DNA from: Bdellovibrio sp. KM01
Lineage (GTDB): Bacteria > Bdellovibrionota > Bdellovibrionia > Bdellovibrionales > Bdellovibrionaceae
Length of the DNA stretch: 64,000 nucleotides
NCBI RefSeq assembly: GCF_013752535.1
Contig: NZ_CP058348.1
Location: 3,162,001 to 3,226,000 of the forward strand
Reading direction: 5' to 3'
Under the pieces are notes generated by a model that made no database searches, had not been told where the DNA came from, and saw nothing but the letters and a program-made list of their open reading frames with translations. Position 1 is the stretch's first letter, and the number at the start of each line of letters is the position of its first letter. Below, piece after piece: positions 13,523-32,559 of this stretch. The position numbers and the translations under genes were made by a program.

Positions 13523-13595
13523 ATTTGCAAAAGCGCAATGATCTTTCATGATTAATTTGCGTTTGCTCAATGACGAGCCCGCAGAGGAATCTGCA

Positions 13596-15359
13596 ATGTC
13601 TTTAAAAGTAAAATTTCTGCTGATTGTTTCGGTTCTTTTAATCGCTTCTTCCGCGACTATCTTTTTCTTAAATCGCGAGACTTTTCTCTCTGACAAGCGC
13701 TCTTATGTCTATGCCAATGCCCTCGAGAGAATCGATGGAATCAGTCAAAACTTTAATCAGGATTTCAATACCAGTTTCGAAAGAATTCGCTCCGCACTTC
13801 AGCTTTTCGATGCCTCCACTCAACAGTTCCCTCCCCAGGTCAAAGCCCTCGCCAACAACCAAAAATGGGGTGATATTTCGATTTTTATCGCTCAAGACGG
13901 TTTCCCACTGCGTCTTATGGACGTTCTCGGAACACAAATTTCCACCTCGGAAGCGATCACCAACCGACTGACTTCCATGAAGGAAAATGAGCTCATCGTC
14001 GAAAACGACATTCAATTTCCTGACAAGCTCACGGTCCTGTTTCGTCAGGGTCCTTACCGAGTTTACGCAAACTTGCAATTCCCCTTTTTTAAGAATATTC
14101 AAAGCCGCAATGAAGTCGCCCTTTACCTGGCTAAAACCAATCAATGGTGGTTTCCCGCTTCTTCCAATGATGGTTTCAACTCCATCACTCCCCGCCTGAA
14201 AGAATTTTTTCAACAAAGCTCCAGTGGCGTGAAGGACATCGACTTAAATAATCGACGTTATCTGATGTCTTTCAAAAAACTGTCACAGCTGGATGTTTAT
14301 GTTTTTGAAGTCTTCGATAAGAAAAGTATTTTCTCAGTTGTCGATTCCATCATGAACAAAACCTTGGCTGCGAGCTTGATCATACTGGTGATCGGCTTGG
14401 TTGCCGTCTTCCTTTCCATCGATAGTCTCACACAAAACTTGCTTCGCCTGGCAAATGCCATGAGTGAATTTTCAAAACATGGGACTGCGAAGCCTTTGAA
14501 AATTGCCAATAAAGATGAAATTGGGCAAATGGCGGGAGTTTTTAATTCCATGCAGAGCAAGATCGAAGGACTGCTGCAACAGACTCAGGAGAAAGTGCGA
14601 ATGCAGGCGGAACTTGAGACAGCCAAAGAGGTTCAGACGACTCTGCTTCCGAAAATGAAGGTGGAAACAGAGGCCTATTCCCTGAAAGGATATTATCACC
14701 CCGCTTCGGAATGTGGTGGCGATTTGTGGTTTCATAACTGCGCCGAAGATAAAATTTTTGTATTTATCGGCGATGCAACCGGACACGGAGTTCCGGCTGC
14801 TTTGATCACGGCAGCGACTCGTTCCATCTTGTCCTTGACGGTAGATGAAAAAATCTGGAGCCCGGGAAGAACTTTGGGTCGAATCAATCAAGTTCTGTGT
14901 GACGTCGCCAAGGGAGAGAAAATGATGACCGCTTTTGCCGCCACAATCGATTTGAAAGCGGAGAAAATCACTTACGCCAATGCCAGCCATGAACAACCGC
15001 TTTTACTTCCTTTAAGTGAAGAAGGACGCAAGTTCAAAAAATCAGATATCACCTTGCTGGGCGAAGTAAACGGCAAGCGACTGGGACACGAGAAAGACAC
15101 CGTGTACGAGGAGATTTCAACTGACTTCAAATTAGGCCAAACTCTTTTTGCCTATACCGATGGTTTGACTGATGCCGAGAACACCAAGAAAGAACAATTC
15201 GGCGAGCGCACCGTATTTAAGTTGGCAGCGGATGCTTGCACAAAAGGATCTCAGCGAAGCCTTCACGATCAAATAGCCAAACGGATTGTTGAGTTCACGC
15301 AGGAAATCGAACAACCCGATGACATCACTTTCCTTAGCCTTCATTTGCGCGAATCTTAG
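13596..15359 (+). CDS. Membrane-bound SpoIIE/RsbU-type PP2C phosphatase
   Basis: A 587-residue signalling protein. The ATG at 13596 has AGAGGAA upstream; an in-frame ATG at 13548 lacks a ribosome-binding site. Order: TM helix 1 (about 5-24), a periplasmic sensor region of about 220 residues, TM helix 2 (KTLAASLIILVIGLVAVFLS, about 250-272), a HAMP-like linker (KIANKDEIGQMAGVFNSMQS), a coiled coil, then the PPM phosphatase domain: AKEVQTTLLP, SECGGDLW, IGDATGHGVPAALITA, and YTDGLTDAEN. The metal-binding Asp residues are present. RsbU/SpoIIE enzymes dephosphorylate anti-anti-sigma (STAS) proteins. No STAS or RsbW gene is adjacent. It converges with the FliF/FliG-like gene, overlapping its end by 26 bp. 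Confidence 0.92.
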   Translation: MSLKVKFLLIVSVLLIASSATIFFLNRETFLSDKRSYVYANALERIDGISQNFNQDFNTSFERIRSALQLFDASTQQFPPQVKALANNQKWGDISIFIAQDGFPLRLMDVLGTQISTSEAITNRLTSMKENELIVENDIQFPDKLTVLFRQGPYRVYANLQFPFFKNIQSRNEVALYLAKTNQWWFPASSNDGFNSITPRLKEFFQQSSSGVKDIDLNNRRYLMSFKKLSQLDVYVFEVFDKKSIFSVVDSIMNKTLAASLIILVIGLVAVFLSIDSLTQNLLRLANAMSEFSKHGTAKPLKIANKDEIGQMAGVFNSMQSKIEGLLQQTQEKVRMQAELETAKEVQTTLLPKMKVETEAYSLKGYYHPASECGGDLWFHNCAEDKIFVFIGDATGHGVPAALITAATRSILSLTVDEKIWSPGRTLGRINQVLCDVAKGEKMMTAFAATIDLKAEKITYANASHEQPLLLPLSEEGRKFKKSDITLLGEVNGKRLGHEKDTVYEEISTDFKLGQTLFAYTDGLTDAENTKKEQFGERTVFKLAADACTKGSQRSLHDQIAKRIVEFTQEIEQPDDITFLSLHLRES

Positions 15360-17088
15360 TCACTTTGATGGCTCCATCAATCAGATCAGTCATGGTGATG
15401 GAGCGATACTCCAAGATCGTTTCAATTTGCAGGCAAATTTTTCTGCGGGTCTCGGCCGTGATTTTTTGTGAAGGAATCATGGCCATATCACTTAGCTCTC
15501 TCTCTAAAATCATCGCTTTTTTCTCTGGCAATGCCGACAAAGCGGCGTTGATAACAGGGCGTTGGCAACGGAAAAATGCTCCGTAAAGCATTTCCACTTC
15601 AAACAGCCCCAATACCTCAGACAGAATGTCTCCTGGTACCAATGCAACGTCTTCAAAAATCAAAATCGAACGACGAACACGCTCCAACTCCGCAGGATTT
15701 TCCACCGCAAACAGTGTCAGAATATTCATTTCTTCCTCTGGTGACATACCACGGATGACCTTTGACAAGACTGTGGCGCCATCCACCCTCGGCTCTGGCT
15801 TCAGACGGATTTCGCTGACACGTTGTTTGAATGCTTGAATCACAGACTGCAAAACGTCATGAGGAATCTTTTCAATGCGAGAGAGCTCACCCATCACGCG
15901 GATTTTCTTATCTCCTTCCAGAGTTGCCAATATACCCGCTGTGACTTCTGACGGCGCATGCAAACACAGTATTGCAATATTTTTGGCACTTTCTTTCTCC
16001 AGGATTTGGGTTCGTTGATCATCACGCAATTTTAAAACGAAATTAAACGGACCGGCTTCGTCTTCAGCCATTTCGTGTTCGATGTAAGAAGCAAGCAAGG
16101 CACGATAAGTTTCTCGCACGCCTTTTTCAATTTGCGCTGGCAACGGATCACCAGAGCGCTCTTTAACCGAACGCCCCATCCGAGCCCAAGCCATGGCTGG
16201 AATTTCTGTAAAAAGATGCTTCGCTGTATCCCAACCGATAAAGTCCATCAGGTAAGTTGTATTTTCTTCGGCTCCTTGCAAGCAATACTCGGCAATGGCC
16301 CGAGATGCCATTTGAGGATATTGAGTTCCAATTTGAATGACGTGCTGGCGCACACTTTCCAAATCCATATCCCAAACCATTTCTTCTGATTTGGCAGCGA
16401 CCACTGGATCTGCGGGTGCACTTACCACAGGCGGAACAACTTCCGGTTTTGAATCTGGTTTGTCATCAGGTTCATGGATGTATTCATGGTTTTCTTTGAT
16501 GTCTTTCTTCGCATCTGCATTTTTACTGCGTCTCCAAACTGCAAACATCAATCCGGCAACCGCTAACAGAGACAGAATTACCACCAGCACCCACGTTTTC
16601 CACGTCAACTCTGGCAACTGTTTCGGTGGCTCTTGAACTTTGGGATCCATGGGCAATTCGATGCGACGGATATTTACGGCGTCACCGGCTGTGGAATCCA
16701 AATGGAGTTTAGAGACCAATAGATCACGGATCACCTTTTCCACTTCCGGAGAAACATTGCGCGACAAAACCACGCTGATGTCGGTCTTGGCTTTCATTTC
16801 GTGAAGCTTATTTGCAGCCATAGGAGCCACCGGCACATCACCCATCATCGGCATACCTGGAAGATATTGAAGCTCTGCTTCCTCATGAAACTCTTTCAGC
16901 TTCTTTTCATCTCGATCCAATTCCACTGAAACAACCAGAGTATACTCCGTGGGACGAAGAATTGTATTCAACACCGAGCGGGCTCTGACCTCGTACAGAC
17001 TTTCCAAGGAGCCAATTTCTTCGATATACTGGGCTTTCACAACCAGGGACGAAAGCACAAGTGCCAGAACTAAAAAAACGTGCTTCAT
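15334..17088 (-). CDS. FliF-like/FliG-like fusion membrane protein
   Basis: A 584-residue protein with AGGAGG upstream of its ATG. Residues 1-19 are a signal peptide or N-terminal membrane segment. Residues about 30-150 follow the C-terminal periplasmic part of the flagellar MS-ring protein FliF: RARSVLNTILRPTEYTLVV, a loop, TDISVVLSRNVSPEVEKVIR, then AGDAVNIRRIELP. A TM helix follows (about 165-186), then a charged, proline-rich linker. Residues about 350-565 follow FliG middle and C-terminal domains: SAKNIAILCLHAPSEVTAGI, ILIFEDVALVPGDILSEVLG, and the charged torque-helix region LPEKKAMILERELSDM. This would be an MS-ring and rotor-switch protein in one chain. Homology is read by eye. It overlaps the upstream gene by 4 bp and is the last gene of a four-gene cassette just downstream of motAB. 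Confidence 0.72.
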   Translation of the reverse strand: MKHVFLVLALVLSSLVVKAQYIEEIGSLESLYEVRARSVLNTILRPTEYTLVVSVELDRDEKKLKEFHEEAELQYLPGMPMMGDVPVAPMAANKLHEMKAKTDISVVLSRNVSPEVEKVIRDLLVSKLHLDSTAGDAVNIRRIELPMDPKVQEPPKQLPELTWKTWVLVVILSLLAVAGLMFAVWRRSKNADAKKDIKENHEYIHEPDDKPDSKPEVVPPVVSAPADPVVAAKSEEMVWDMDLESVRQHVIQIGTQYPQMASRAIAEYCLQGAEENTTYLMDFIGWDTAKHLFTEIPAMAWARMGRSVKERSGDPLPAQIEKGVRETYRALLASYIEHEMAEDEAGPFNFVLKLRDDQRTQILEKESAKNIAILCLHAPSEVTAGILATLEGDKKIRVMGELSRIEKIPHDVLQSVIQAFKQRVSEIRLKPEPRVDGATVLSKVIRGMSPEEEMNILTLFAVENPAELERVRRSILIFEDVALVPGDILSEVLGLFEVEMLYGAFFRCQRPVINAALSALPEKKAMILERELSDMAMIPSQKITAETRRKICLQIETILEYRSITMTDLIDGAIKVTKIRANEG

Positions 17089-18071
17089 TTAGCGCCTCCT
17101 GAAATGGTCAATAAAGAAAGGGCCATGCTTTTGGTCTCGGGATAACGCGACTGATTGGCAATGCGCTGGACATCGGAGCGATACTTATCGACAACGTTCA
17201 ACTCGCGAACCCCCACTAAGAAAGCATCTTCCGCATTTTCACTATCGTACGAATTTTTTGCCAAGGATTCCAAATGGCTGCTCAGATCTTCCTTAATCAG
17301 TTGATGACGAATTACCAACTGTTTAAAAATCATCGCGCGATATTGTTGCGGATAAGATTTAAAGTTCTTAGCCACTTCATTCCATAACTCGGCCGCTGCT
17401 TTTGCATCCCGCATTTGAGCAATCAGCACAACGCCCTGATAGGGATCTTGTTTGGACGTGATTTTGTCGCGAACGATCTTTCGACCTTTTTCAGGCAAGG
17501 GATTCAGACGCAACAACGTTTCCCCCACGATGTCTCTTTGATTTCTTTGACCTTCGGCTGTCGCTACGCCATAGAAATGTGACAGCGCATTTATCGTCTC
17601 CTCGGGTAAGGAACTAAACTTCAATAAAACTTTAGACGCATAACTAAGAGCCTGAGCCTCCGGGCCCAATACCGGCTTTTCACGCTTGCCCATCATGTAT
17701 TCTGCAATGGCAACTTGTAGCCCCTGTAAAGACTGTTTGTCCTCGGGTTTCCACTCAGGTTTGGTCACATCAAGAATATAAATACTCGCCTGAAAAAATG
17801 AGATATTGTCCTGGACATTCTTATTCAGCCCAAACATCGAACGCAGTTGTACAAAGTCTTTTGCTTTCCAGGCTTTTCCAACAGGAGAATCCAAATGGGT
17901 TTTTAAAGCCATTCCCGCGTTGAGCTGTGCCGCTTTTAGGACCTCAATGCCACCTTCATGAGTTACTCCTGTCGTTTTCACAACCGCCCGATCCTTACGA
18001 AGCAAATATCCAGCGGCAACGGCAAGTCCAATCAAAACAATTCCCGATACTAAAACATTTGTCTTTTTCAT
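17085..18071 (-). CDS. Membrane-anchored helical-repeat protein of the motor-like cassette
   Basis: A 328-residue protein (start ATG at 18071; a GTG at 18077 overlapping the previous stop is the alternative). Residues about 5-24 form a single N-terminal hydrophobic helix (LVSGIVLIGLAVAAGYLL), leaving most of the chain in the periplasm. The rest is helical and recalls HEAT/TPR-like packing (AKAAAELWNEVAKNFKSY, YRAMIFKQLVIRHQLIKEDL, AEDAFLVGVRELNVV). I do not recognise the family. Its stop overlaps the start of the FliF/FliG-like gene by 4 bp and its start abuts the outer-membrane-like gene, so all are translationally coupled. A scaffold linking membrane layers fits the context but is inference. 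Confidence 0.65.
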   Translation of the reverse strand: MKKTNVLVSGIVLIGLAVAAGYLLRKDRAVVKTTGVTHEGGIEVLKAAQLNAGMALKTHLDSPVGKAWKAKDFVQLRSMFGLNKNVQDNISFFQASIYILDVTKPEWKPEDKQSLQGLQVAIAEYMMGKREKPVLGPEAQALSYASKVLLKFSSLPEETINALSHFYGVATAEGQRNQRDIVGETLLRLNPLPEKGRKIVRDKITSKQDPYQGVVLIAQMRDAKAAAELWNEVAKNFKSYPQQYRAMIFKQLVIRHQLIKEDLSSHLESLAKNSYDSENAEDAFLVGVRELNVVDKYRSDVQRIANQSRYPETKSMALSLLTISGGAK

Positions 18072-18073
18072 AA

Positions 18074-18661
18074 TCACTCAAAGCCCACAAAGCGCAGGCC
18101 AGCAAAAAGAGTCATAAATTGATAACTGACACTGTCTTCTTCACTCGAGGCGGTCAAACTGCTTCCCAAAGCCACCTGTCCCACCAATAGCATGTTGGAC
18201 ATTACCGGGATCTCGACCCCGCCCCGCACACTCAAATCCAGTAACGACGCATTTAATTTATCCACGGCCAAATTACTTAAACCTAAATTCATCGCGATAA
18301 ATGGAGTCGAACGCCACACCTTCGCCTGTGTGCGACTGTCCAACACCGTACGCATTCCGTTCACACCCATTAAATAGTAACGAGCACCAACTGCAATTCG
18401 CGTAAAGGGCAATTGCAATCCCCCGGCGTCAGTGATTTCCATAAATGACAATGTCATGGCCGTATTAATGGAGGGATTATTGATGCTGTAATTTACTTCC
18501 ACCGTCGTAGAAGATTCCAATGACTTAGAAGCCTCTAAGCGAGAAAAGTCGTACTGCAGGCTCGTGATCCCCAGACTGGCATCCCAATCTGATGTCATAT
18601 ACGCCCACGCTGGACTTGAAACAAAAAGTACAACAAGAATCCCCCAGAGTTTATACATCAT
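18074..18661 (-). CDS. Small outer-membrane beta-barrel-like protein
   Basis: A 195-residue exported protein with a signal peptide cleaved after SSPAWA. The mature chain alternates polar and hydrophobic residues in short strands (TVEVNYSINNPSINTAMTL, PFTRIAVGARYYLMGV, PFIAMNLGLSNLAV, NMLLVGQVALGSSLTA) and ends with YQFMTLFAGLRFVGFE, an aromatic final strand fitting an 8-stranded outer-membrane barrel. The family is not recognised. It is overlapped by 4 bp at both ends region-wise: ATGA with the PEGA/TPR lipoprotein gene upstream, and a near-zero gap to the helical protein downstream. In the cassette it would provide the outer-membrane component. Confidence 0.65.
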   Translation of the reverse strand: MMYKLWGILVVLFVSSPAWAYMTSDWDASLGITSLQYDFSRLEASKSLESSTTVEVNYSINNPSINTAMTLSFMEITDAGGLQLPFTRIAVGARYYLMGVNGMRTVLDSRTQAKVWRSTPFIAMNLGLSNLAVDKLNASLLDLSVRGGVEIPVMSNMLLVGQVALGSSLTASSEEDSVSYQFMTLFAGLRFVGFE

Positions 18662-19548
18662 CGGACCTGTGTATCTCGGCGACGCTTTTCTATCTCAACA
18701 TTAGAAGCAGGATATCTCATCTCTGCACCTGTTTGCGGAAGCGGTGCCATTCCTAAACGTTTATAAACATCAGACAAATATTGATACGCTACTTTATTAT
18801 AGGGATCGATCTTCAGGCAGCGCTCCCAAGCGATCTTGGCACCTTCAAAGTCCTTCTGCAGATATTTGATGGAACCTTTCAACAGCCACGCATTGTTGGA
18901 GTACTCATCCATCGTGAGGGCTTTGTCTACTTCTGCCAGGGCCTGTTTATAATCACCCTTCATGATAGATTTCTGACCTTGAAAAATAAGTCCAACCACC
19001 CGTTCACTGCGATCACGATCTTGAGTGGGCATGCCGCCGGATAAACGCGGCGAGAACAATGCATCTTTATAAAATGACGATGTATTTTCCAACAAGGCCA
19101 CACGTAATTTCAGCTCGGCGAGGTCTGCTAACAAATCTTCCATCTTTTTGTCTTCAGGTTTTTTCTTGTCATCCGGTTTTGGCGGCTGTTGATCCTGTTT
19201 TTTATCGTCGTTTTTAGCTAGCTCTTCGGCCTTCTTTTCCTCATCAGACAAGGGATCCAGACGGGCTTGCACGGCAATACTTTCACCTTCATTGACCTTC
19301 ACCATGACTTCTTTGGTACGATAGTTTTGCTTTTCAAAGATCAGGAAGAAGACATCACCCAGTTTTGATTCCTCCTGAATATTCAGCGGAGAAATTCCCA
19401 GTAGTTTTTTTTCATTCGTCTGCATATCCTTAACGTAAACCTTTGAACCTTGAGGATAAGATTTAATGGAATACTTTCCCGCGCAGGCCGAAACCAACAC
19501 TGACGAAAGAACAAGGAACAACATTTTCAGTTGTTGTCTTAGAAACAT
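18658..19548 (-). CDS. PEGA/TPR lipoprotein of the motor-like cassette
   Basis: A 296-residue lipoprotein; the ATG at 19548 has GGAGG eight bases upstream (an in-frame ATG at 19563 is less likely). Signal peptide with lipobox VSAC. Residues about 20-95 look like a PEGA domain (SYPQGSKVYVKDMQTNEK ... LGISPLNIQEESKLGDV ... FEKQNYRTKEVMVKVNEG), a small surface or peptidoglycan-associated beta fold. A Lys/Asp/Pro-rich linker follows, then a coiled segment, and two or three TPR repeats near the C-terminus (ALAEVDKALTMDEYSNNAWL, KDFEGAKIAWERCLKIDPYN). It is the first gene of the cassette, overlapping the barrel-like gene by 4 bp. Partner binding through TPRs is inferred. Confidence 0.78.
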   Translation of the reverse strand: MFLRQQLKMLFLVLSSVLVSACAGKYSIKSYPQGSKVYVKDMQTNEKKLLGISPLNIQEESKLGDVFFLIFEKQNYRTKEVMVKVNEGESIAVQARLDPLSDEEKKAEELAKNDDKKQDQQPPKPDDKKKPEDKKMEDLLADLAELKLRVALLENTSSFYKDALFSPRLSGGMPTQDRDRSERVVGLIFQGQKSIMKGDYKQALAEVDKALTMDEYSNNAWLLKGSIKYLQKDFEGAKIAWERCLKIDPYNKVAYQYLSDVYKRLGMAPLPQTGAEMRYPASNVEIEKRRRDTQVR

Positions 19549-19633
19549 TTCCATATCCTCCATGACATGTGAAACTGATTGAAGCGGCTCGCTGATTTCA
19601 TTCTCCTAACCAGAGAGGAAAAAAACATATTCT

Positions 19634-20248
19634 ATGAAACCATTCTTCACTTTGGTCCTAATCTTACTGTTCGGTGATGTTTCGGGTGCTAGTATTCAGG
19701 CGCCGATGCTGAAAGCAAAGCTCTCCATGTACAATACAACCGTATCTGCCGGAGAGTTGGTGCATGATGAAACTTTGGGCAGCATGATGACAATTCAACC
19801 AACGCTGTTGTGGGATATACCCTCCATGAATTCGCGTGTGGGCGTTCACTATATTCTTGATATCAATAGTAAATACGGAGCCACTCCGATCTCAGGAATC
19901 GGACTCAGTGGCTACTACTATTTTAAAGGATTGTCTTCGGCTTATGAAATCAGCCCAGACGAAGTATTACTGCAGAAATCTCGTCCAGGAATATTTACCT
20001 TCGCAAGCTTTACTCCGGTGAACTTCAATCTGAATAAACTGGATAAAAGTGATCCAAATCAATCGTTTTCTTTCAGTGCCCTGGTGTATGAATTTATTCT
20101 GGGCGCCGGTTTTGAATACCCTTTAAAACCAAACTCCTTGCTTTCATTCGAGCTTTCAATGAGAGAAGGCTCCTCAGCCTCGAATGACCTTTCGGTCAAG
20201 TATTCGGGATTTGGAGCCTCCTTGGTATTCTCGACTTCGTATTACTGA
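19634..20248 (+). CDS. Exported hypothetical beta-rich protein
   Basis: A 204-residue protein with signal peptide MKPFFTLVLILLFGDVSGA. The mature part is rich in short amphipathic strands and aromatic residues (SRVGVHYILDINSKYG, GIGLSGYYYFKGLSS, LVYEFILGAGFEYPL) and ends in YSGFGASLVFSTSYY, consistent with an outer-membrane beta-barrel. It recalls the 195-residue barrel-like protein at 18074-18661 in size and style but is not clearly a paralogue. It is transcribed in the opposite direction to the cassette (85 bp between starts) and its end overlaps the end of motB by 7 bp. Confidence 0.65.
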   Translation: MKPFFTLVLILLFGDVSGASIQAPMLKAKLSMYNTTVSAGELVHDETLGSMMTIQPTLLWDIPSMNSRVGVHYILDINSKYGATPISGIGLSGYYYFKGLSSAYEISPDEVLLQKSRPGIFTFASFTPVNFNLNKLDKSDPNQSFSFSALVYEFILGAGFEYPLKPNSLLSFELSMREGSSASNDLSVKYSGFGASLVFSTSYY

Positions 20249-21195
20249 GCTTTTTGCTCGTAACTCTTAGTTTTTGTTTCGAGAGCCTCGATTTGCTTCT
20301 CGAGCTTTTGTAACTGTTGTTCTTTACGCTTCTGCTCAGCCTGTTCACGGTATTTGCGCTGAGCTTCTTCGAACCGAACCTTGGCGAGTTTCATCTTATC
20401 CTGAAGCTCGTTTTCTTTCTTCTGGCGTTCCACTTCTTCTTTAGTCAGCTGCTTCTTAAACTGTTGCTGCTGCAGGCGATAAGCCTCTTCCGGATCCATC
20501 AATTTCACTTGAACGACCACCCGACGATTGGCAGCCTTGTTGATTTCAAGCGGATTTCCCTGAGCATCTTTTTCAGGAGCCACAGGATGAGACGAACCAA
20601 AACCAACAGCCGCCAAGACATTCGAACTCAGACCACTTTCTTCAAAGTATCTGACCACAGAGCTAGCTCGCATGGATGAAAGCTCCCAGTTTGATTTAAT
20701 CACGGAGCTTTGCATAGGATCGCCATCGGTATGACCTTCGACGCTGATTTTCTCAACACTTGGAACCGTTCGCAACGCCGCCACAACTTGGCGCAAAGCT
20801 GGTTTAGCAGCGTCTTTCAACTCGGTCGCACCCGATTCAAAAAGAACATTGCCTTCGAATTTGAGTTGCAGAGTATTGTCAGAGCCTTTCGAGATCTCGA
20901 CACCTTTCATTTCTCCTGAACCCAGCAAAGCCGTTTTTAGCTTTTGCTCTGCCTCGAGAACCGTGCTGATTTCCTTGATGTTACCGCCAAAGTATTTAGC
21001 GACTTCTTTACGAACCAAATCGAAGCGCGTGTTATCAAAACGAGAGAGCGAATACATCAAAACGAAGAAACCAAACAACAAAGTCATCATATCGGCGTAA
21101 CTGACCAGCCAGTTGGATTCGTCGTGAGCACTGCTGTGCTCCTGACCATGTTCATCATCATGGTGACGACGATAATTGCGTTTATGCGCGCCCAT
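20242..21195 (-). CDS. motB: MotB-type stator protein with long C-terminal coiled coil
   Basis: A 317-residue stator subunit. After a His-rich N-terminus comes the single TM helix with the proton-carrying Asp35 in SNWLVSYADMMTLLFGFFVL, the plug region (SRFDNTRFDLVRKEVAKYFGG) and an OmpA-type peptidoglycan-binding domain (about 125-235: VEGHTDGDPMQ, NWELSSMRASSVVRYF, AANRRVVVQV). The final 80 residues are an unusual Lys/Glu/Gln coiled coil (KEEVERQKKENELQDKMKLA ...), absent from typical MotB. MotB anchors the stator to the wall while ion flow through MotA4B2 turns the rotor. It starts one base after the motA stop, so the two are coupled. Confidence 0.93.
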   Translation of the reverse strand: MGAHKRNYRRHHDDEHGQEHSSAHDESNWLVSYADMMTLLFGFFVLMYSLSRFDNTRFDLVRKEVAKYFGGNIKEISTVLEAEQKLKTALLGSGEMKGVEISKGSDNTLQLKFEGNVLFESGATELKDAAKPALRQVVAALRTVPSVEKISVEGHTDGDPMQSSVIKSNWELSSMRASSVVRYFEESGLSSNVLAAVGFGSSHPVAPEKDAQGNPLEINKAANRRVVVQVKLMDPEEAYRLQQQQFKKQLTKEEVERQKKENELQDKMKLAKVRFEEAQRKYREQAEQKRKEQQLQKLEKQIEALETKTKSYEQKAQ

Positions 21196-22002
21196 CTAAG
21201 CCACCTTTTTCAACGAACCAACATCACCGCCGTCTTGTCTTTGTTGCGGAGGCAAGAAAGACTTCAAATATTCTCGGATAAACATCGGGTGCTTCTTTTC
21301 ATGAATCAGCAAGACACCTTCTTTAATAATCTCACGCAACGTCAAGTCCGCTTGAGAAACGCTGGAAAGTTTTTCCGCAATCGGAAGCAACACTAAGTTG
21401 GCTGTTAACAGACCATAGAAAGTTGCAACCAGAGCTGTGGCCATAGCTGGACCGATGCGATCCTGAGCTCCGGGCTCACCCAGTGTTTGCAAAAGAGAGA
21501 TCATCCCCAACGTCGCACCCAACAAACCGAATGCTGGCGGGAATCTGGAGATCGTCTGCCATACTTTGATTTCATCAGCATCACGTTTCTTTTTACCACG
21601 AACGGCATTATGCAAGATTTCATCTAGCTCTTCATGATTGAAACCGTAATCTAACAAAAGATGGACACCGTCTTTGAGGAAAGGATGGTCCGTAGGCTTC
21701 ATCATAGTTTGAAGAGACTTAGGATCCTTGCGATATGACTCTGATAGCGTCACGATTCTTTCAATCGACTCATTATAGTTGATGGCACGTTCGCGACCGA
21801 AGTACTTGCGAGCGATAATTTTCAGCGCGCTCCAAAGACTTTTAAAGTTGAAACTCATCAAAGCCACTGTAATCGTACCACCGATGACCAGGGCGATCCC
21901 GTGTGGATCCGCAAAAACTTTTGGGTTTTTTGCACTGTCCATGATCGCAAAAGCTGAAATACCTACCGCAGCAATTAATCCCAGTAATCCTGCAAAGTTC
22001 AT
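21196..22002 (-). CDS. motA: MotA-type stator protein
   Basis: A 268-residue inner-membrane protein with four TM helices: LLGLIAAVGISAFAIM, HGIALVIGGTITVALMSF, FGLLGATLGMISLLQTL and ALVATFYGLLTANLVLLPIA. Between TM2 and TM3 is the charged cytoplasmic domain that contacts FliG, and the conserved prolines of the ion channel are present (RFPPAFGLLG, LLPIAEKL). TTTGGAGGCGCT precedes the ATG. Together with MotB it forms an ion-driven torque unit. B. bacteriovorus is known to carry more than one motAB pair; this one is flanked by the FliF/FliG-like cassette and not by flagellar structural genes, so its rotor may not be the flagellum. A TATG-type -10 box lies about 45 bases upstream. Confidence 0.95.
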   Translation of the reverse strand: MNFAGLLGLIAAVGISAFAIMDSAKNPKVFADPHGIALVIGGTITVALMSFNFKSLWSALKIIARKYFGRERAINYNESIERIVTLSESYRKDPKSLQTMMKPTDHPFLKDGVHLLLDYGFNHEELDEILHNAVRGKKKRDADEIKVWQTISRFPPAFGLLGATLGMISLLQTLGEPGAQDRIGPAMATALVATFYGLLTANLVLLPIAEKLSSVSQADLTLREIIKEGVLLIHEKKHPMFIREYLKSFLPPQQRQDGGDVGSLKKVA

Positions 22003-22553: not shown

Positions 22554-23786
22554 TCATTTGCATTCGATGACCGAATATCCCGCTCCGTCTTTGGTGTTCG
22601 CTGCTAACAGATGACGCTGTCCCGGTAATACCACCCACATCTGCTGATGCGCCAAAGAGTTTCTTAAAAATGGATCGTCAATCTCGTAACTCTGCTTGGT
22701 ACCTTCTGCCGTCACGTGTGTTAGGAGAAATTTATCAAAGAAATAGTAGCTCTTATAGCGCTCCGCCACCCAATAGCCATTTACTTTTTTTGATTCCTCT
22801 AACGAATAATCACCACGAAAGGCTAAAGGCTCCGCTGTCATGATGAAGGGAGCATCCGCCCGATTGTTAGCCAAATCAGAGAGCTTATAGAGCTTCCATT
22901 GTTCGGTGCGATCCAACCAGCCACTGACTTTAACGCCGAATACGTTTTCTTTGCTTACTACGAAATCAGCAAGACCGTCTTTTAGTGGCGATAATGGCAA
23001 GGGATCCAATTTGAATTTATCGACCGCCACACTATAGAGACTCAGCGTGCCTGAAATTCCAGAAGAAAAGCCCATCAGGCCGTCGTCCACGCGTAAACGT
23101 GCATGGCGATTTTCCGCAAGTTGATTACACTGCCCCACACTCAAACTGCTATCCGGGTCCACTACCATCAAAGTGTCAGGAGAACGACCCACTCCTTTGG
23201 GAACATAGTCCGACAGACGTCGTAAATCATAAAAACCAATTTGGCCCTTGGCGTTTGCAAAGACGACATTATCGCGATTCACTCGTTGAATGCGAACATC
23301 CTCTGACCAGTTGCCCGTGCAAAGCCCCAAATTGGATTTTTCCAAAGCTTTGCTCTTATTTAAGTTTACGGCAACGATTTGTCCAAGGTTGCTGCGAATA
23401 AAGGCCCAGTCTTTGTTTGTTCCCGCCAACTGAAACTCTCCCGCACCTGAATTCTTTAACGAACTGGCATGACGGGCATTAAGATCCCAATAAGGCTGTG
23501 CATCTTCGGCAAACCCCATTTTTCCAATAAGCCATCCGTCTTTATTTTCAGTCAGACCCGCAATCATATACTGACCATCCGGATTGATATACAGATGGGT
23601 CAATAAACCCATTTTTTGATCTCCCACCTTGATTGGCCCGGAGTATTTAACCTGGCACTGTAGAGGCACACCTGCACTCTTAGGCAAGTTCTCAAACAAG
23701 GTCACAAACAGCAGGACCAACGACAAAAATATCGCTGAGAACACCGGAACTTTAATCGACAAAGGAATCTTTTTTACTTTATTCAT
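22554..23786 (-). CDS. Membrane-anchored hypothetical protein ending the surface operon
   Basis: A 410-residue protein (ATG at 23786; a GTG at 23795 overlapping the previous stop is possible). A basic N-terminus precedes one TM helix (VPVFSAIFLSLVLLFVTLF, about residues 11-30). The exported remainder is beta-rich and contains several short repeats around aromatic-glycine turns (HLYINPDGQYMIAGLTENKD, GMGEFQL-like and WAFIRSNLGQIVAVNL segments), which could be a propeller-like fold; four cysteines are present. I do not recognise it. It is the last gene of the 20-kb surface operon and is coupled to the VWA gene. Confidence 0.6.
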   Translation of the reverse strand: MNKVKKIPLSIKVPVFSAIFLSLVLLFVTLFENLPKSAGVPLQCQVKYSGPIKVGDQKMGLLTHLYINPDGQYMIAGLTENKDGWLIGKMGFAEDAQPYWDLNARHASSLKNSGAGEFQLAGTNKDWAFIRSNLGQIVAVNLNKSKALEKSNLGLCTGNWSEDVRIQRVNRDNVVFANAKGQIGFYDLRRLSDYVPKGVGRSPDTLMVVDPDSSLSVGQCNQLAENRHARLRVDDGLMGFSSGISGTLSLYSVAVDKFKLDPLPLSPLKDGLADFVVSKENVFGVKVSGWLDRTEQWKLYKLSDLANNRADAPFIMTAEPLAFRGDYSLEESKKVNGYWVAERYKSYYFFDKFLLTHVTAEGTKQSYEIDDPFLRNSLAHQQMWVVLPGQRHLLAANTKDGAGYSVIECK

Positions 23787-23791
23787 AGCAG

Positions 23792-25153
23792 TCACTTCTT
23801 AACCTTCGAGCACTGAAGCTTCACAACTTCCTTGTTTGAGCCCATAATGATGTCTTTAAAAATACATTTATCATCGACACGAATTTCATAAACGCCCTTA
23901 CCCAGAACCAGCGGGAAGTTCGTCACGTGATTTCCCATCATGATGCCCCGGTTACCGAAGACATAGATTCCCTTAACCTGAGGATCCTCGACATAAGCGA
24001 CACCGGCTTCCTCGATGGTATATTCGTATTCCGCATTCGGCACCACGAGGTAGTTATTCACGACTTTTTCATAAAAAGGATCTCGGTAAAATCGGAAGTT
24101 CCATTTTCCTGGTGGCAATGACACAACGGCGTCACTATTAAAGCGTTTGACCACCTTACGGTTTTTATTCAGAAGTTCCACCTTCATCAAGCCGTCAATA
24201 AAGTTCGCTTTAAACTTGGCTTCGCCCTTCACTTTCAAGGTCACCTTTTTATTTGGTGGAACTATAAATTCCTTAAAGCGATATTTCGGTTTCAGATTCA
24301 CGACCGCATAATACCTGCCCGGAGGAACCTGAATCCCATAAGACGCCTGGAATCGACGGTAGATCTCATTGGGAGTTTCAGCACGGAACAACATCACGGT
24401 TGCTTGCGGCTCCGGGCTGTCGACAAATAGATTCTTATTGGGATTCAAATCTTTATCTAGGTCTTCAAACATTTTATCCAATTGTTCCTCATCATCAGCC
24501 TGATGAAGATCGCCGATACATTTTAGCTTTTGCAAAGTTTCTTGTTGCCCTTGCAGCCCAAATGCCACGACAAAGAACTTCAAATCCACATTCTTATTTT
24601 TGAACTCTTCAGAAAGCTTGCAGGGATCTTTGCCACAGGTTTCCTCTCCGTCCGTAAAGATTACCACACGCTTAGGACCATCGTACTTTTCCAAATCCTT
24701 ATAAGCCTCTTTCATTGAATCATAAAGAGGTGTCATGCCCACCGGATCCATTGACTTCACCATGCCCTCGATAAGACCCAACTTGGCATTACCAGGAGGG
24801 ATTGCCAGATAGTTGTCCTTACAATCTTTTTTGCGACGTGAGCCAATGACTCGCATGCCACTGGAAGTTTTTTCCGTCCACTGAGAAACCAAATAACGGG
24901 ATAAGAGCTTCTTCATGACAAAGATTTTGGTTTTCTTGCCTGTGAGAATTTGTCCCATCGATCCGGAACTGTCGATAATGTATTCCACCAAAGGTGTCGG
25001 TACACCCTGCAGCTCGCCCAGATCCGCAGTTCCCTGTTCACTGACGGGAATCTTCGATGGATCATAGTCAAACTTGTCCAAGTCTTCGGCACCAAATGCC
25101 GAAGTGACAGAAAATCCCAATAAAAGAGTCAAACAAAGGGCTTTAATCATCAT
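23792..25153 (-). CDS. Secreted von Willebrand factor A domain protein
   Basis: A 453-residue protein with signal peptide ending SAFGA. Residues about 50-240 are a VWA domain with a complete metal-ion-dependent adhesion site: IIDSSGSMG, GMTPLYDSM and IFTDGEETCG. The remaining 210 residues hold two or three beta-sandwich segments of PEGA/carboxypeptidase-regulatory type (VPPGRYYAVVNLKPKYR, SLPPGKWNFRFYRDPFYE, VLGKGVYEIRVDDKC). VWA domains bind protein ligands through a divalent metal. It overlaps both neighbours by about 4 bp (ATGA with the outer-membrane-like gene upstream), so it belongs to the operon of giant surface lipoproteins and may bind them or a prey or host surface ligand; that is inference. 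Confidence 0.85.
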   Translation of the reverse strand: MMIKALCLTLLLGFSVTSAFGAEDLDKFDYDPSKIPVSEQGTADLGELQGVPTPLVEYIIDSSGSMGQILTGKKTKIFVMKKLLSRYLVSQWTEKTSSGMRVIGSRRKKDCKDNYLAIPPGNAKLGLIEGMVKSMDPVGMTPLYDSMKEAYKDLEKYDGPKRVVIFTDGEETCGKDPCKLSEEFKNKNVDLKFFVVAFGLQGQQETLQKLKCIGDLHQADDEEQLDKMFEDLDKDLNPNKNLFVDSPEPQATVMLFRAETPNEIYRRFQASYGIQVPPGRYYAVVNLKPKYRFKEFIVPPNKKVTLKVKGEAKFKANFIDGLMKVELLNKNRKVVKRFNSDAVVSLPPGKWNFRFYRDPFYEKVVNNYLVVPNAEYEYTIEEAGVAYVEDPQVKGIYVFGNRGIMMGNHVTNFPLVLGKGVYEIRVDDKCIFKDIIMGSNKEVVKLQCSKVKK

Positions 25154-26343
25154 CTTGTCTTCATAAGTTTGCTGACGAAATCATCTAAACGGAGACCTAA
25201 CATCACTTTGAAATACGACTGACTTTCGCTGTAGGATTGCCCCGCGGGAATGACATAAGCTCCATCGGGTGCGCTCTTGGTATCTCCAGAGAAACTCATT
25301 TCTGCCTGGGATAAACCATAACTGACGTCCAGCGAATAACGTTTCAACCATGGAATAAATGGAACATAGAACAAGGCCGTTGCACCCACCTTGATTTCCA
25401 TCATGGTGCCCGACGAGGCGCCGCCGCGACTTACGGAACCATCGGTTACGTTATAACTCAGGAAATAGTTCATATCGCAATAGACACGGTTTAACTTCCA
25501 ACCCAGCCCTTTTTCCGTCTTATATAAATTGTCCGAGAAGAGATAATGAAAGTTCACTCCCAATCCCAACCCGGAAGACTGCGAGGATAAAACATACTCA
25601 TCCTCGTTCGTCGTAATAAATTTATTCCCGAGGGAGATCAGCTTTAATGTGGGACGTAGTTCTTTCCAAATCGGCAGCATGCGATAGTGCAACGACATGC
25701 GTGTTTCTTCTGACGTCGTGGGACGATCTTCGCGATAGTAGGATTTCACCGGAATCCCCGCACTAGAAGATTGATACTCGATACCGTATCTCCACAGCAT
25801 GTCGATATACCAAAGAAAATGCATCTCAGTGAATTTGAAGTCATAGACTTTGTATTGATTCGCCTGATTGGGAGACTGACTTTCAAAATGCCCCTGATAA
25901 GTTCCCATTTCAAAAATCATATACCCTGGCTCATAGGGATCTGCTTGCTCAATAATAGGAACATCCGGTGGCTGAGGGAAAAGAGGATCATCTGGCGGAG
26001 GTTTCAGTTTCGACAAACTGACAACCCAGTCCCGAGCTTTAGGAATTTTAGAAATAGAAGGGCCTTCCATAACAACCAATAGCTCATTGTTCTGAACGGT
26101 TTCAGCGGCTCCACGGGCAATCACCTCGACGTCATCGCCCTGAACACGCAGGACGACCACCAAGTCACCCACGGCAACGCGATTGCTGCGAGCCAAAAAG
26201 ACCACGTCGTCCATCACGCGACGAACGGGAACTGCATTCTTTTTGATGAAGTCGATGTTGATCCAGCTACTGGCCAAGGCCAGTTCGCTAAGGCAAAAAG
26301 ACATCCATGTTGCCATCATTAAGATGATAAAAATCCTTTTCAT
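25150..26343 (-). CDS. Exported outer-membrane-type protein
   Basis: A 397-residue protein with a signal peptide (MKRIFIILMMATWMSFCLSE, cleaved near LALA). Residues about 25-105 look like a small beta domain (RVAVGDLVVVLRVQGDDVEV), followed by a Pro/Asp-rich stretch (PPPDDPLFPQPPDVP) and about 260 residues of strand-rich sequence with alternating aromatics (FLWYIDMLWRYGIEYQSS, GLGVNFHYLFSDNLYKTE, MLGLRLDDF) typical of outer-membrane barrels. No known family recognised. It directly follows the 2068-residue lipoprotein (stop and start adjacent) and overlaps the VWA gene by 4 bp. It could anchor or export the large surface proteins of the operon, but no export motif is visible. Confidence 0.65.
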   Translation of the reverse strand: MKRIFIILMMATWMSFCLSELALASSWINIDFIKKNAVPVRRVMDDVVFLARSNRVAVGDLVVVLRVQGDDVEVIARGAAETVQNNELLVVMEGPSISKIPKARDWVVSLSKLKPPPDDPLFPQPPDVPIIEQADPYEPGYMIFEMGTYQGHFESQSPNQANQYKVYDFKFTEMHFLWYIDMLWRYGIEYQSSSAGIPVKSYYREDRPTTSEETRMSLHYRMLPIWKELRPTLKLISLGNKFITTNEDEYVLSSQSSGLGLGVNFHYLFSDNLYKTEKGLGWKLNRVYCDMNYFLSYNVTDGSVSRGGASSGTMMEIKVGATALFYVPFIPWLKRYSLDVSYGLSQAEMSFSGDTKSAPDGAYVIPAGQSYSESQSYFKVMLGLRLDDFVSKLMKTR

Positions 26344-29300
26344 CTATTTTGCTCTGAAAACCTTTCCTTTGCTTCGGCTGATCAATAAGATCTGCCCGGA
26401 ATCGTAACTCGCAATACTTGAGATCGGCGCCGGTGCGGCACTCACGTAAACGTGATTGTCGTTAAGATCAATTGTGAAAACTTGGTTGGCGCCTTCCATC
26501 GTTCCGATCAACAGACGATCTGCCGCCCTTAAAACCAAACGTCGACCGGCACCAGGGACGTCAAATGCCGAAGCGTTCAATTCGTTTACCCCGATATACT
26601 GCATACTACCCGTGGTCGGTGTTGAGGAACTGCCATCAGGGAATGTCACGACTCCACCTGTACCGCTTAACAGTGCATAGACGCGGTTGGTGACGGAATC
26701 ATATACAACATCCGTCGGCTTACAGTCTTCATGTCCTGTCACGCCATCAAATACCGGCAACGTGGCGACCAATGAAGGAGTTCCTCCACTGCGGGCTGCC
26801 GTCACACTGAAAACATAAATTTTGTGAGAAACAGACGGAGTCGTCTGTTGCGTGGTCACATACAAGCGATCAATGGCCCGATTCAACGTCATACCTGTGA
26901 TCTTTGAAGTTCCAAAACTGTACACCATCTTAGGGTTGTCTGGCGTCAGATAGTCGTAATACAAAACGTTCTGTGAATCAGAGGCATAGAACGTATAGGC
27001 CGAGTCCATCGAAGCCGTGATACGCGAATCTGAATAAAAAGGACTGGTATAAAGCTGAGTTGGACAGTCACCGGAACATTTATTGCTGCCGCTAAGTGTG
27101 AGTGCGGTTAGATCTCCGTTGAGGATATGCAAAGCTTCGGTCGTCAGTCCGAAAGGACCACCGCGCGCGACCTGCGACGTCATCAACATATCATAACCAG
27201 TTCCCACAGGGTTGATCGCCACGCGACGAGTGGAGGCACCTGTCAACCATGGCAATGACTCCGTAAAGTTCCATGGTGGGATTGTCACGGTACCATTCGG
27301 TTTAGCGACCACTCCATTCACGCTCAACAAATCCCACAGGAAGTGCTTGGTAAATGAACCCGACAAATAACTTCCGTAAATGATCAAATGATCCTGATAG
27401 CTTGTCCCTTGAGAGATACCATAAGGAATTTCGCCACTCCAAGTGACATTCAAAGGAGTCGTGGCCGGCAAACTTTCCGTTCGAGCCGCCGTTAAATCAA
27501 AGATCGATTCTCCCAGGAGATAAGTATTTTTAACTTTCACATTCCAAGTTCGTGAAACGGTATAGTTACCATCCGTCACGTCCACTCGAACCGAGAATTC
27601 CCCGGCAGTTTTAGGCCCACTGCCGTCCACGTCAACTGAACCATCCGTATCCAATGGTTTGAAAATGTAAGAAGGCCCTTCGTCATATTTCAATACGTCA
27701 TTCACATACCAGCGATAGAACAAAGTATCATTAGTATTTGGATCCGTCGCATTTACCAAAAAGTTCAATGAAGCTTTTTCGGAAATCAAAACTGAATCTG
27801 AGGATGGAATGACTGAACTAATCACTGGCGGCTCTTCCAGAGGAGAAATCGCACTTTGAACTTTCAGATAAAAGTGAGCGGCATCCGTTTCTCCCGTGAC
27901 GGCGTCACGAACCTGAACACGGACCAGGCTGCCAGCGCCATTGGTCGACGTCAAATCGGTCGTATAGTTTGGAACCCAAGAAATCACTCCCGTTGTGGGA
28001 TCAATACACATGCCATTTATTTCGCCACAGGCGCGAGGAGAATTTAAAAGCGAATACTCCAGTGGATTCTTCTGCGAGTTGTTCACCAGCACTTCATATC
28101 TGAATGGATAGGAACCCATACTCGCTGCGGTTTGGGGCATAAAATGAATTGGAATATTACTGATATCCACACGAGGACTGACCAAGAATACCGGCGCGAC
28201 AACTGTGATTTGCAATGGGGCCGAACTGATGGCACGACTTGAAGTAATTCCGTCACGGTCCACATCCCCATTATCACTCACATCCAATTCGGCAGAGTAA
28301 ACACCGATGTGACCACGTTGCGGACACCATTCCATTTGATACTTCTGACGAAGGACACCCGATACCAGCTCCGGTGAACCCACTGGACTGAATTTAGGCA
28401 CCGCAAGATCGGTATTCAGAACACCACTGCTGTAGCATGGACTCACCGTACGATTTTTATCGTAGGAGCTATCAAATGCCACTAATTCAGAAGCAAATGT
28501 TGTCGTCGTCGCATGACAAATATAGGGATCAGAAGAACCCGAATCCAAAACAGCATTTTGCAAAGGATTCCCATTGCTATCACGGCAAATGGATAGCAAC
28601 GTCGAAAACGTGCCTCCCTGAGGAATATAAGCATCATTATCGTAAAGATAGAATTCCTTTTTTACATACGTATCGGCAAAGACTCGAACCTGATTGTCCG
28701 TCGCCATTTGCCCAATAGAAGGAATCTGATTTTTATTGATCACACGAATTTTGTAATAACCATAAATCGTTTGCGTTAAATCCGGTGAGGACTTGGCATC
28801 ATAGATCTTCATCTTGACAACAAATCCCGCCGCACCAGAAAACTTTTTAGATTCCTGATCCGTTGGTGTCCAAGAAATTCGCGCCGTCGTTTTACTTCCT
28901 GCCGTTGCTGTGAGGTCTTCGACCTTATCCACGCTCACACTCAGACCCGCAGGTCGCGTAACCCAGGTATTGGTTTTCAAATCATAAACTTGAGGATCCA
29001 ATTCAAAATTAGTCGTCTTAAGTTCAATCCCTTTGTTGGTATCTTTAGTATACAGATTGTAATATCCGGCGACGCCTTCTTCGTAGTCTCCCAGGTAAAC
29101 TGGATTCGAAGTCGATGCACCCAGGCCAGCACTAAAGGTCGTAAAAGAACTGTCTGTCAAAATAGACGGATGATTGATCTCATTGACCACCAAAGTAATA
29201 TTCGTCGTCCACGATGCCGCCGACGTCCATGTATCAGGATTTCCTTTATTCATGATCTCATTGACCGTTAATTTGAATGAGAATGTTCCTGACAAATCCG

Positions 29301-32300
29301 CTGTCACCGGGTGATAGCGTAAATAGCATTTATTGGTGTTAAAATACTTACGCCCCGAAGATGGATGCGTCGACAATAAATTCGATCCGGAAACTGGCAC
29401 ACACTTGTTCGTACAAGTCGTTCCGGCATTTCCAGGATCTCGGCAAAGATCCCACGTCCCCGTCGGAGCCGTTCCTGATGCGGCAATACTATAGGAATAG
29501 GTATCGCGGCGATCATATGGATACCAATAGTTCGTAATTCCATAAAGAGGATTCGGCACTTCAGAGTAGTTATCTGATACCTCAATCGCTCCGTTGGTCA
29601 GCTCTACACCCTCGTAAGCTTGAATCACAGGATCGGTGACCAATTTTGAAGCCACATTCAAGTGAGTGTAATTATAGGTCACGGTCTTATAAGCTGGATA
29701 ACCGATATTATTGGTTCGGCGAACCCAAACACCTGTAACAGAAGCTGTGCCCGCATTCATCGTCACTGCACTCATTGTTTCATAAAGAGTGCGATTGGCT
29801 GTCATAATTTTTGTACCAACGGGCAAAGTAAAAGACGTCGTGGTACTTGTCCGAGTAAAGTTCACCAGGCCTTCCATATCAAAGGACGTCGGATTCGTGA
29901 CCTTTAATGTCGCCGCTGCAGCAGGCAAGGTATCATAGAAAACATTAATCGTATTAACCGCAGGCTTTTCACCATCCAAAGCACGAACTGTAAATTTACG
30001 TGCCGTCGGCGTAACAAAGTTCGGTTCCACAAACAAGGACGTCATGTCATAGTTTGCCAGTTTCGAGACTGTTTTTGCCGTAAAGGTAAATCCCGTCGGC
30101 TGACTTGGCGCCGGAGAAGCATAAGCTATTGTCAGAGGCGTATTTGCAGGGATTTCTGTATAAAGACGCCACACCGGCACCGTAACAGACAGGGTGCCAA
30201 TCGGCATCACGACCGCGGCCGGCACTTCGAACCTGGCGCTATTCACAAACGGAGATCCCGAAGATTCGGCTGTCTTCACAACCGTACCCGCAGGAATTGT
30301 TAAGGCCACCGTCGCCGTAGCGCGAGTGAAAGTGACGGTTCCTTTTAAATCGATTGCGGCAGAGTTCGTAACACTCAGACCCGCGATTGCACTTTCGAAT
30401 ACCGTGATTTTGCCGGCAGGAACATCCGTCGTATCTGGAACCACCGGCACATAAAGCAGCCAGTCCTGCGGTTGCACCACAACGTCATAATAAGTTTTAA
30501 ACTTTTGAATATATCCTGCAGCAGTCGAAGTCAGAACTGTGCCTTTTTTTATCGTTGTCGCGGCAGTCGGTCTGCCCGTCAGTGTGTTGGAGCGCTCAAA
30601 GGTCACGTACCCAGCTCCACCCCACCATTCCGTGTCCCAACGTCCACGCACACACAGTGTTCCGGAGTTCTTACGATAGGTCGGCTCAGTTTGAGTGACA
30701 TTTTGTTTTAACAACAGAGGTTGCGAGGTTCCGCAATCGGTAAGAAGTTTCAAAAAGTCATAACTTGAATTAGCCGCAAAGCCAAAAGCCTCAACCCATA
30801 AAGATCCACCGTCTTTATCTGAGCTTGTGAAATTCGTGTTCGTGCCGGCAGAAACATAAGTCAACGCAGCCGAGACATCCGATCCGCCCAAGCACGGTTT
30901 GGTATTTCGATCCTGGGACGTAAAGTTCAGTGTGATTGCGGAAGCAGTTCCGCCGTGATTGTCTTTTGCTACGACAATGAACGTACCGGTTTTCACTGCA
31001 TGAGTCGGTTTCCAATCATAGGTATAGCGGATGCCACCCGCAATCGCTGTTTCTGAAACTTTTGTCATATAAGAAGTCAACGTCCCAGATGTCGCGATTG
31101 AAACGACATCCGCTGGTGTAGGGGGCGGCGTCACTAAATTATCTGGATCGACAATATCGAAATAAAAACGATAAGGCGGAACTCCATCGGGAACCTCCAG
31201 CGCACAGTAATCATATTCATAGGGATCATTGTAGACGACTTTAGCACCTGCTGTTCCATCCACCAGATAAGGTGCCCGGTTGCTGTCGCCAACATTCAAA
31301 TTCAAAGTCGCAATCGTAATCCCGGATGATTCATCGGTGAAAGCCAAGGCTACTGTGGCTGATTTTTTCAATGCGTCACTATTAGTTGGCGTCCAACGCA
31401 ATTCAACTTCGTTCAAACCATCGATTTGAGCTGGCGCCGCGACACCGTTGATGGTGATCGGTCCGGAATCAACGATCGGCTCCAAGGAAACAGATACTTT
31501 TTCTTTATCTGGATCCTTATAGGTAATTTTACAGATCCATTCCTTATCTTCCAAGGCATCCAAGGAACAAGTATGAGAATATTCAGGACGACGATTTACA
31601 TTCGTCACAAACACATTCCAATTAATGCGCGTAACCTTACCCCCATCGGAGAAAATCACCGACATTTGGTAAGGATCAACACGGCCTTGTTCAAAATCAG
31701 GAATCCACTTCACAACGCCATCTTCGCTGGCGAGGGGTTTGTTTTCAAAAGCCCAGGCATAGAAAACTTCATCGCCATCTGGATCGCGAGCCGCAGCTCT
31801 CATGAGTAGCGTCGCCATTTCATTGACACTTTGGTCTACCTGTTTTGTCGTCGCTTTATCGTCGACTATTGGAGGACGGTTATCGAAGTTAAAAGGATAT
31901 GGTTCCGCCGCAATATCCCCGTTGCTGTCAAAGTCGAACTTGATGTTGAAAGTTTTAAGAAACGTTAAAAACTGCGGATCGCTCGACAAACCATTGCGCA
32001 CGAATCGGTATAGCAGGTCCGGGCTGAAATCGCTGGCAATTCCAAATAGCGCCATACGCTCTTTGCGGAATGCAATCACGGCTTCAGTAATTTGTTGAAC
32101 TTCTGCATACGTATAGGAACTTAATGCGCGATCTGGGTATGAGGACAACAGCGAGAATACCAAAGTCGAATCCATATCGACCTTATTCACGACATCGGGG
32201 AAGACAATCGCATACCAAGGCGTAGAACGATACTCCATGACCACTTTGGCGACCGCTGAAGACGTTAAGATCAAATTTTTCGGTAAGATCTGACGGATCA

Positions 32301-32550: not shown

Positions 32551-32559
32551 AAATACTCT

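Follow-up and report, generated by a model that had tools for sequence, protein, structure and literature searches.

We found that Bdellovibrio sp. KM01 encodes a single protein chain in which a periplasmic domain, predicted to resemble the RBM3 domain of FliF, is joined through a transmembrane (TM) helix to a cytoplasmic part homologous to FliG. We propose that this fused protein is likely the rotor of a non-flagellar rotary machine driven by MotAB, because of its homology to FliG, its RBM3-like model, and its conserved linkage to a distinct clade of MotAB; its rings, rotation and phenotype are without experiment. The textbook setting in which MotAB turns a FliG rotor is the flagellum. The window analysed is the whole stretch of 64,000 nucleotides from position 3,162,001 to 3,226,000 of contig NZ_CP058348.1, and the features of the rotor cluster in it are as follows.

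13548..15359, plus strand: SpoIIE-type phosphatase, named from its sequence with no family search; converges on the rotor gene
15334..17088, minus strand: fused ring-rotor protein, 584 aa (open reading frame, Pfam, family profile, AlphaFold2, Foldseek)
17085..18077, minus strand: helical protein of 330 aa with a membrane anchor; shares 4 bases with the rotor gene
18074..18661, minus strand: small secreted, probably outer-membrane beta-barrel protein (synteny; barrel inferred)
18658..19563, minus strand: PEGA/TPR lipoprotein, core partner (Pfam TPR_2 9.8e-8, PEGA weak)
19634..20248, plus strand, opposite to the rotor: second small outer-membrane-like protein, conserved
20242..21195, minus strand: MotB-type stator subunit (Pfam MotB_plug 2.5e-16, OmpA 8e-18)
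21196..22002, minus strand: MotA-type stator subunit (Pfam MotA_ExbB 4.5e-23; own clade; co-occurrence with the rotor)
22554..23795, minus strand: membrane-anchored protein, family unknown; conserved where genus members have the cluster
23792..25153, minus strand: secreted von Willebrand A (vWA) domain protein (Pfam VWA 2.6e-6); conserved in Bdellovibrionia clusters
25150..26343, minus strand: secreted protein, family unknown; conserved in the cluster
26344..32550, minus strand: giant lipoprotein of 2068 aa without a Pfam match
32560..38010, minus strand: giant lipoprotein of at most 1816 aa, its start codon being uncertain
37778..42481, minus strand: giant lipoprotein, 1567 aa (FG-GAP repeats 2e-45, fibronectin III (fn3) 1.2e-6)

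The rotor gene runs on the minus strand from an ATG at 17088 to a stop at 15334. An earlier note, made from the sequence alone, had placed the reading frame at 15334-17088, which held for the coordinates, the strand being minus; the four strings that it quoted (TDISVVLSRNVSPEVEKVIR, AGDAVNIRRIELP, ILIFEDVALVPGDILSEVLG and LPEKKAMILERELSDM) are all present in the 584-aa protein. A mis-called or split gene was rejected, since in 15 of the 16 relatives within Bdellovibrionia the frame is open throughout, and a contig end cuts the remaining one. Hydropathy analysis revealed a signal peptide and one TM segment at about residues 166-184, and the segment right behind it is strongly positive, which fits a cytoplasmic location. 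The full-length AlphaFold2 model, made from an alignment of 16 rows, had a mean pLDDT of 76.5 and a pTM of 0.32, and therefore its domains are usable while their mutual placement is uncertain. The layout of the protein is given below.

Residues ~1-20: signal peptide
Residues ~21-150: periplasmic alpha/beta domain, RBM3-like by prediction
Residues 163-190: TM helix (AlphaFold2 model)
Residues 191-240: disordered charged linker (AlphaFold2 model)
Residues 243-571: FliG N/M/C-like helical part, cytoplasmic

The FliG-like domains of the rotor protein are homologous to FliG. Pfam FliG_M (2.9e-7, 31 bits) and FliG_C (3.6e-6, 27.6 bits) were both found above their curated cut-offs of 25 and 23.3 bits, and the single sequence matched 1lkv in the PDB at 1.2e-7. 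A profile of 16 rotor relatives matched solved FliG structures over residues 345-555 with an E of 1.5e-29, a value on which chance resemblance to FliG was rejected. The family profile also recovered the genome's own FliG at 8e-28, in a search restricted to two FliG sequences. With Foldseek, the rotor model aligned to complete FliG chains over about 315 columns (E 1e-7). From this length we infer that the helices at 243-342 are probably a FliG_N-like domain, and that the cytoplasmic part is likely to be FliG-like over nearly its whole length. The protein reached just 31.8 bits against the cut-off of 226.7 for the flagellar FliG equivalog TIGR00207, and it is therefore FliG-like rather than a flagellar FliG.

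A charged helix sits at the place of the FliG torque helix, whose residues include R281 and D289 in E. coli numbering. Of 15 rotor relatives, 13 have K or R at the position of R281, and all have D or E at that of D289. The FliM-binding motif EHPQ is lost, being replaced by ESAK at 366-369 with the E alone invariant, and this fits the absence of a FliM/FliN switch.

Whether the periplasmic half is related to FliF was less clear by sequence. No Pfam family matched it, YscJ_FliF_C included, and a PF08345 search of the KM01 genome found the true FliF only and not the rotor protein. A profile of the rotor N-terminus gave just weak, unrelated matches in the PDB; at E 0.001 it did not reach the true FliF proteins of the phylum, as judged from the listed matches. 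Alignment with hhalign to 14 FliF sequences, with and without the collar, stayed at E of about 1e-3 and a probability of 9-17%. Sequence comparison is thus suggestive of FliF homology at most, without significance, and the FliF claim therefore rests on the fold. A separate AlphaFold2 model of the N-terminus was of moderate confidence (pLDDT 74.6, pTM 0.64). When it was submitted to Foldseek, the top 17 PDB matches were all the RBM3 (S-ring) domain of FliF (probability 1.00, E 3e-4 to 5e-3, TM-score about 0.6), and OsmC-like folds came after them. The modelled order of elements is helix, strand, insert, strand, helix, strand, which is also that of the split RBM of FliF (PMC4768692); a short helical insert takes the place of the FliF beta-collar. 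The rotor protein lacks RBM1, RBM2 and TM1, and has about 140 periplasmic residues behind the signal peptide and one further TM. The periplasmic domain is RBM3-like as predicted by the model, and the formation of rings, which in FliF hold about 33-34 subunits, is an inference.

The earlier note had read residues 30-150 as FliF-like and, behind a TM helix, FliG-M/C-like helices with a charged helix in place of the torque helix. Its FliG claims held, as did that of the charged helix, with the extent now widened to nearly full-length FliG, probably including an N-like helical domain. The FliF-like region failed the sequence-profile test but passed the fold test (AlphaFold2 and Foldseek, RBM3). 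Two outcomes had been named as refuting, another fold in the structure model and the absence of a significant FliF/FliG profile match from either half; the FliG half is clear of this on profile and the FliF half on fold. The description "about half of FliF" was corrected to one of three ring domains, RBM3 only.

The MotAB pair lies 3-5 kb upstream of the rotor gene in the same orientation. The MotB-type subunit has the plug, an OmpA peptidoglycan-binding domain, and an SYADMMTLL ion-site motif with the ion-site Asp. Neither subunit met the NCBIfam flagellar equivalog cut-offs (MotA-type best 151.5 of 341 bits; MotB-type best 143.5 of 283 bits). In a MotA tree, all 21 rotor-linked MotA proteins formed one group with 99/99 support, apart from flagellar-type MotA. 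These proteins carry R or K at the R90 position and have lost the glutamate of the E. coli E98 position, although the loop alignment is uncertain; the loss of this glutamate in the clade is taken to mean that the rotor contact differs. Among 15 genomes of the genus checked, the cluster MotA was present in all seven with the rotor and in none of the eight without it. Kinship makes a simple p-value meaningless here; the pattern itself is complete. As a side observation, rotor-linked MotA (window 21196-22002) has a basic GKKKRD-type stretch where flagellar-type MotA of these genomes has an acidic ETQI-TEE, and this stretch may possibly reflect a changed rotor contact.

Two of the cluster-bearing genomes we take to be B. 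bacteriovorus HD100 (G004) and Tiberius (G010). The former has three MotA genes, and the MotA of its cluster lies at 2.92 Mb. From the match in position to the published locus numbers MotA2-Bd3021 and MotB2-Bd3020 (PMC11323537), we infer that the cluster MotAB is likely the "motAB2" of HD100. MotAB2 reportedly contributes to swimming (Morehouse 2011, as given in citing papers), which speaks against our reading. Three MotAB pairs and two FliG copies have been described for HD100 and Tiberius, all counted as flagellar (PMC3539863; PMC11323537), with two FliG copies in each of the strains (PMC3539863). We infer that the second FliG copy is likely the fused rotor protein.

No flagellar genes were seen in the rotor cluster, and the genome keeps separate, normal and complete FliF and FliG about 310 kb away, on which ground a flagellar operon fragment was rejected. 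The claim that the gene adjoins motAB and not flagellar genes thus held, and in relatives, too, the set stays together apart from flagellar genes. The 18074..18661 gene has 4-base overlaps with both neighbours, and tblastn matches to the 17085..18077 protein were limited to closer genus members. SpoIIE-type phosphatase homologues recur beside other MotAB/rotor modules. The three giant lipoproteins in tandem (window 26344-42481) are conserved with the rotor, and their surface exposure is probable.

The fused protein was found in 26 of 369 Bdellovibrionota genomes. Sixteen of these are among 144 genomes of Bdellovibrionia (15 full, one in pieces, with plain-FliG matches kept apart), and the ten others come from other Bdellovibrionota families. 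Within the genus, 9 of 24 genomes have it; it therefore cannot be a general predation engine, though HD100 has it. Most genus members without the rotor and its MotA retain normal FliF and FliG. Clusters of Bdellovibrionia contain motA, motB, the PEGA/TPR lipoprotein, the two small outer-membrane-like proteins, the vWA protein, the 25150 protein and the three giant lipoproteins, apart from members that went undetected in a few cases or fell beyond a contig end or the limits of the stretch. In distant Bdellovibrionota clusters the rotor, motA, motB and the PEGA/TPR lipoprotein are kept, and the small outer-membrane-like proteins are usually there as well. The PEGA/TPR lipoprotein was kept in near and distant clusters alike wherever a long enough stretch was examined. 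A scan of GTDB contigs with the single rotor protein gave no match, and a scan with an alignment gave six, all in Bdellovibrionota. The alignment scan relied on a single peptide pattern, by which distant relatives are missed, and so does not delimit the range beyond the phylum.

Two observations concern distant members. In several genomes of a distant Bdellovibrionota family, a shorter protein of ring domain plus TM lies just upstream of the rotor (L120:404-1393, L123:416-1390, L126:227-1396 and L133:727-1959, the last with a weak FliG_M match). In genome G199, a fused rotor-like protein (L145:8324-10180) had no MotAB match in the 20 kb examined.

In the machine that we propose, the RBM3-like domains would hold copies of the rotor protein together as a small S-ring on the periplasmic face of the inner membrane, with a torque ring, built from the FliG parts in the cytoplasm, on its other face. 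Peptidoglycan-anchored MotAB units would pass ions and push the torque helix; because each rotor subunit is a single chain, both rings are inferred to turn as one piece. The FliM/FliN switch and the export apparatus would be no part of it. When FliF and FliG are fused artificially, assembly and rotation are retained (PMC4768692). With lower confidence, torque or rotation may be passed to the outer membrane via the PEGA/TPR lipoprotein and the small outer-membrane-like proteins. The output may fall on the giant FG-GAP lipoproteins and the vWA protein at the surface, giving adhesion or slow surface movement. Such a surface output, adhesion or gliding, is inferred from neighbouring genes only, and we lean slightly against it. 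The earlier note had also suggested a new rotor type and a link to the gliding engine; the conserved linkage and the separate MotA clade support a dedicated rotor, and the gliding link is still conjecture.

The alternative closest to the published record is that of a flagellar accessory, with MotAB2 as a third flagellar stator and the fused protein as a second FliG copy, either incorporated in the flagellar rotor or modulating it. The published counts for HD100 and Tiberius, in which the 3 MotAB and 2 FliG are all flagellar, speak for it (PMC3539863, PMC11323537). Against it, EHPQ is lost, the rotor lies outside flagellar operons, and the MotA forms its own clade with full rotor co-occurrence, while most genus members lacking both keep FliF and FliG. 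Moreover, in a two-hybrid test FliL bound MotB3, whereas MotB2 did not bind FliL (PMC11323537). We consider this explanation unlikely.

It is also improbable, in our judgement, that the ring is a static scaffold on which MotAB pulls the outer membrane, as a Tol-Pal-like force or tension transducer. ExbBD/TolQR-type systems do act on the outer membrane, and the lipoprotein and small outer-membrane-like partners would suit such a role; however, the system retains a FliG with a torque-helix-like element and a MotB that has a plug and is anchored to peptidoglycan, which are features of flagellar stators. Least credible, and very unlikely, is that the resemblance to RBM3 is superficial, the periplasmic domain being of an unrelated alpha/beta type and forming no ring, with the FliG-like part in some other MotAB-linked role. 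The lack of a significant FliF profile match and the OsmC-like folds next in the Foldseek list favour it, but FliF RBM3 filled the top 17 places with probability 1.00 ahead of those folds, and the sequence of domain, TM and FliG part is the order of FliF then FliG.

The proposed non-flagellar rotor shares with the flagellar MS-ring and C-ring an RBM3-like domain, a TM, a FliG N/M/C-like part, the torque-helix charges and peptidoglycan-anchored MotAB. It differs in being a single chain without RBM1, RBM2, TM1 and EHPQ, with a helical insert for the beta-collar and its own MotA clade, and its cluster showed no genes for FliM/FliN, the export gate, the rod or the filament. Pieces of FliF and FliG are also fused naturally in Chlamydiaceae, where no flagellum is present; that protein of about 330 aa keeps RBM2, two TMs and the FliG_M part only (PMC4768692), whereas the Bdellovibrio rotor has RBM3, one TM, a near-full FliG and MotAB. 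The Agl/Glt gliding system of Myxococcus (AglRQS, CglB) likewise spans the envelope and includes a motor of the MotAB class together with a surface protein of vWA type (PMC13104615), but a FliF/FliG-like rotor is not described there, and kinship is not established. The type IX secretion/gliding motor GldLM is also rotary and driven by ions, and it works on components of the outer membrane (PMC13104615); its stator and driven proteins are taken to be of other families. In the open-access literature searched, subscription papers and preprints being outside its scope, we found no account of a FliF/FliG rotor separate from the flagellum in Bdellovibrionota.

If our reading is true, a one-chain non-flagellar rotor with its own MotAB would mean that the torque pair works independently, and would offer a minimal rotor that could be studied and could inform questions on how flagella arose. 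The motAB2 of HD100, counted as a flagellar stator, would be reinterpreted. The Bdellovibrio gliding machinery was called unidentified by a 2026 review (PMC13104615), and the rotor/MotAB set is a concrete, testable candidate for it, the gliding link being conjecture.

A second MotAB pair of the KM01 genome (G000:C1, about 2552103) adjoins a second, diverged fused rotor-like protein of 616 aa, found by the family profile with E 4e-7.

L180:6670-8520, plus strand (G000:C1, about 2549669-2551519): second diverged fused rotor-like protein

It has a signal peptide, a periplasmic part, a TM and a FliG-like part, and lies near genes for a PEGA-type lipoprotein, a small outer-membrane-like protein, a vWA protein and a SpoIIE-type phosphatase. 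Similar MotAB/rotor sets are present in G017, G025, G038, G059, G063, G305 and G311, with three in G008. Most extra MotAB pairs examined adjoin a diverged protein of the same layout; no rotor-like neighbour was found for those in L188, L189, L193 and L195, and shuffled controls gave nothing significant. In another set (G305, G306, G311 and G356) the order is motA, motB, rotor-like protein, and these rotor-like proteins had no significant Pfam FliG match, so that their relation to FliG is weak. A bolder reading, possible only and put as one joint claim, is that Bdellovibrionota hold a whole class of non-flagellar, ion-driven, trans-envelope rotary machines acting on the outer surface. Each such machine would consist of a MotAB pair and a dedicated ring-rotor that unites ring domain, TM and FliG-like part in one chain. 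The machines would fall into several diverged subfamilies, a genome would have as many as three of them, and one would be the missing Bdellovibrio gliding engine.

Separately, we observed that the three MotAB pairs of G008 (L182, L183 and L184) each have their own fused rotor-like protein. The rotor-like proteins of 770-776 aa in G305 and G311 matched FliG_C at 5e-14 and 4e-10, respectively. In this subfamily (L190:7098-9410 and L191:7235-9565), with its clear FliG_C, the periplasmic part resembles two repeated domains.
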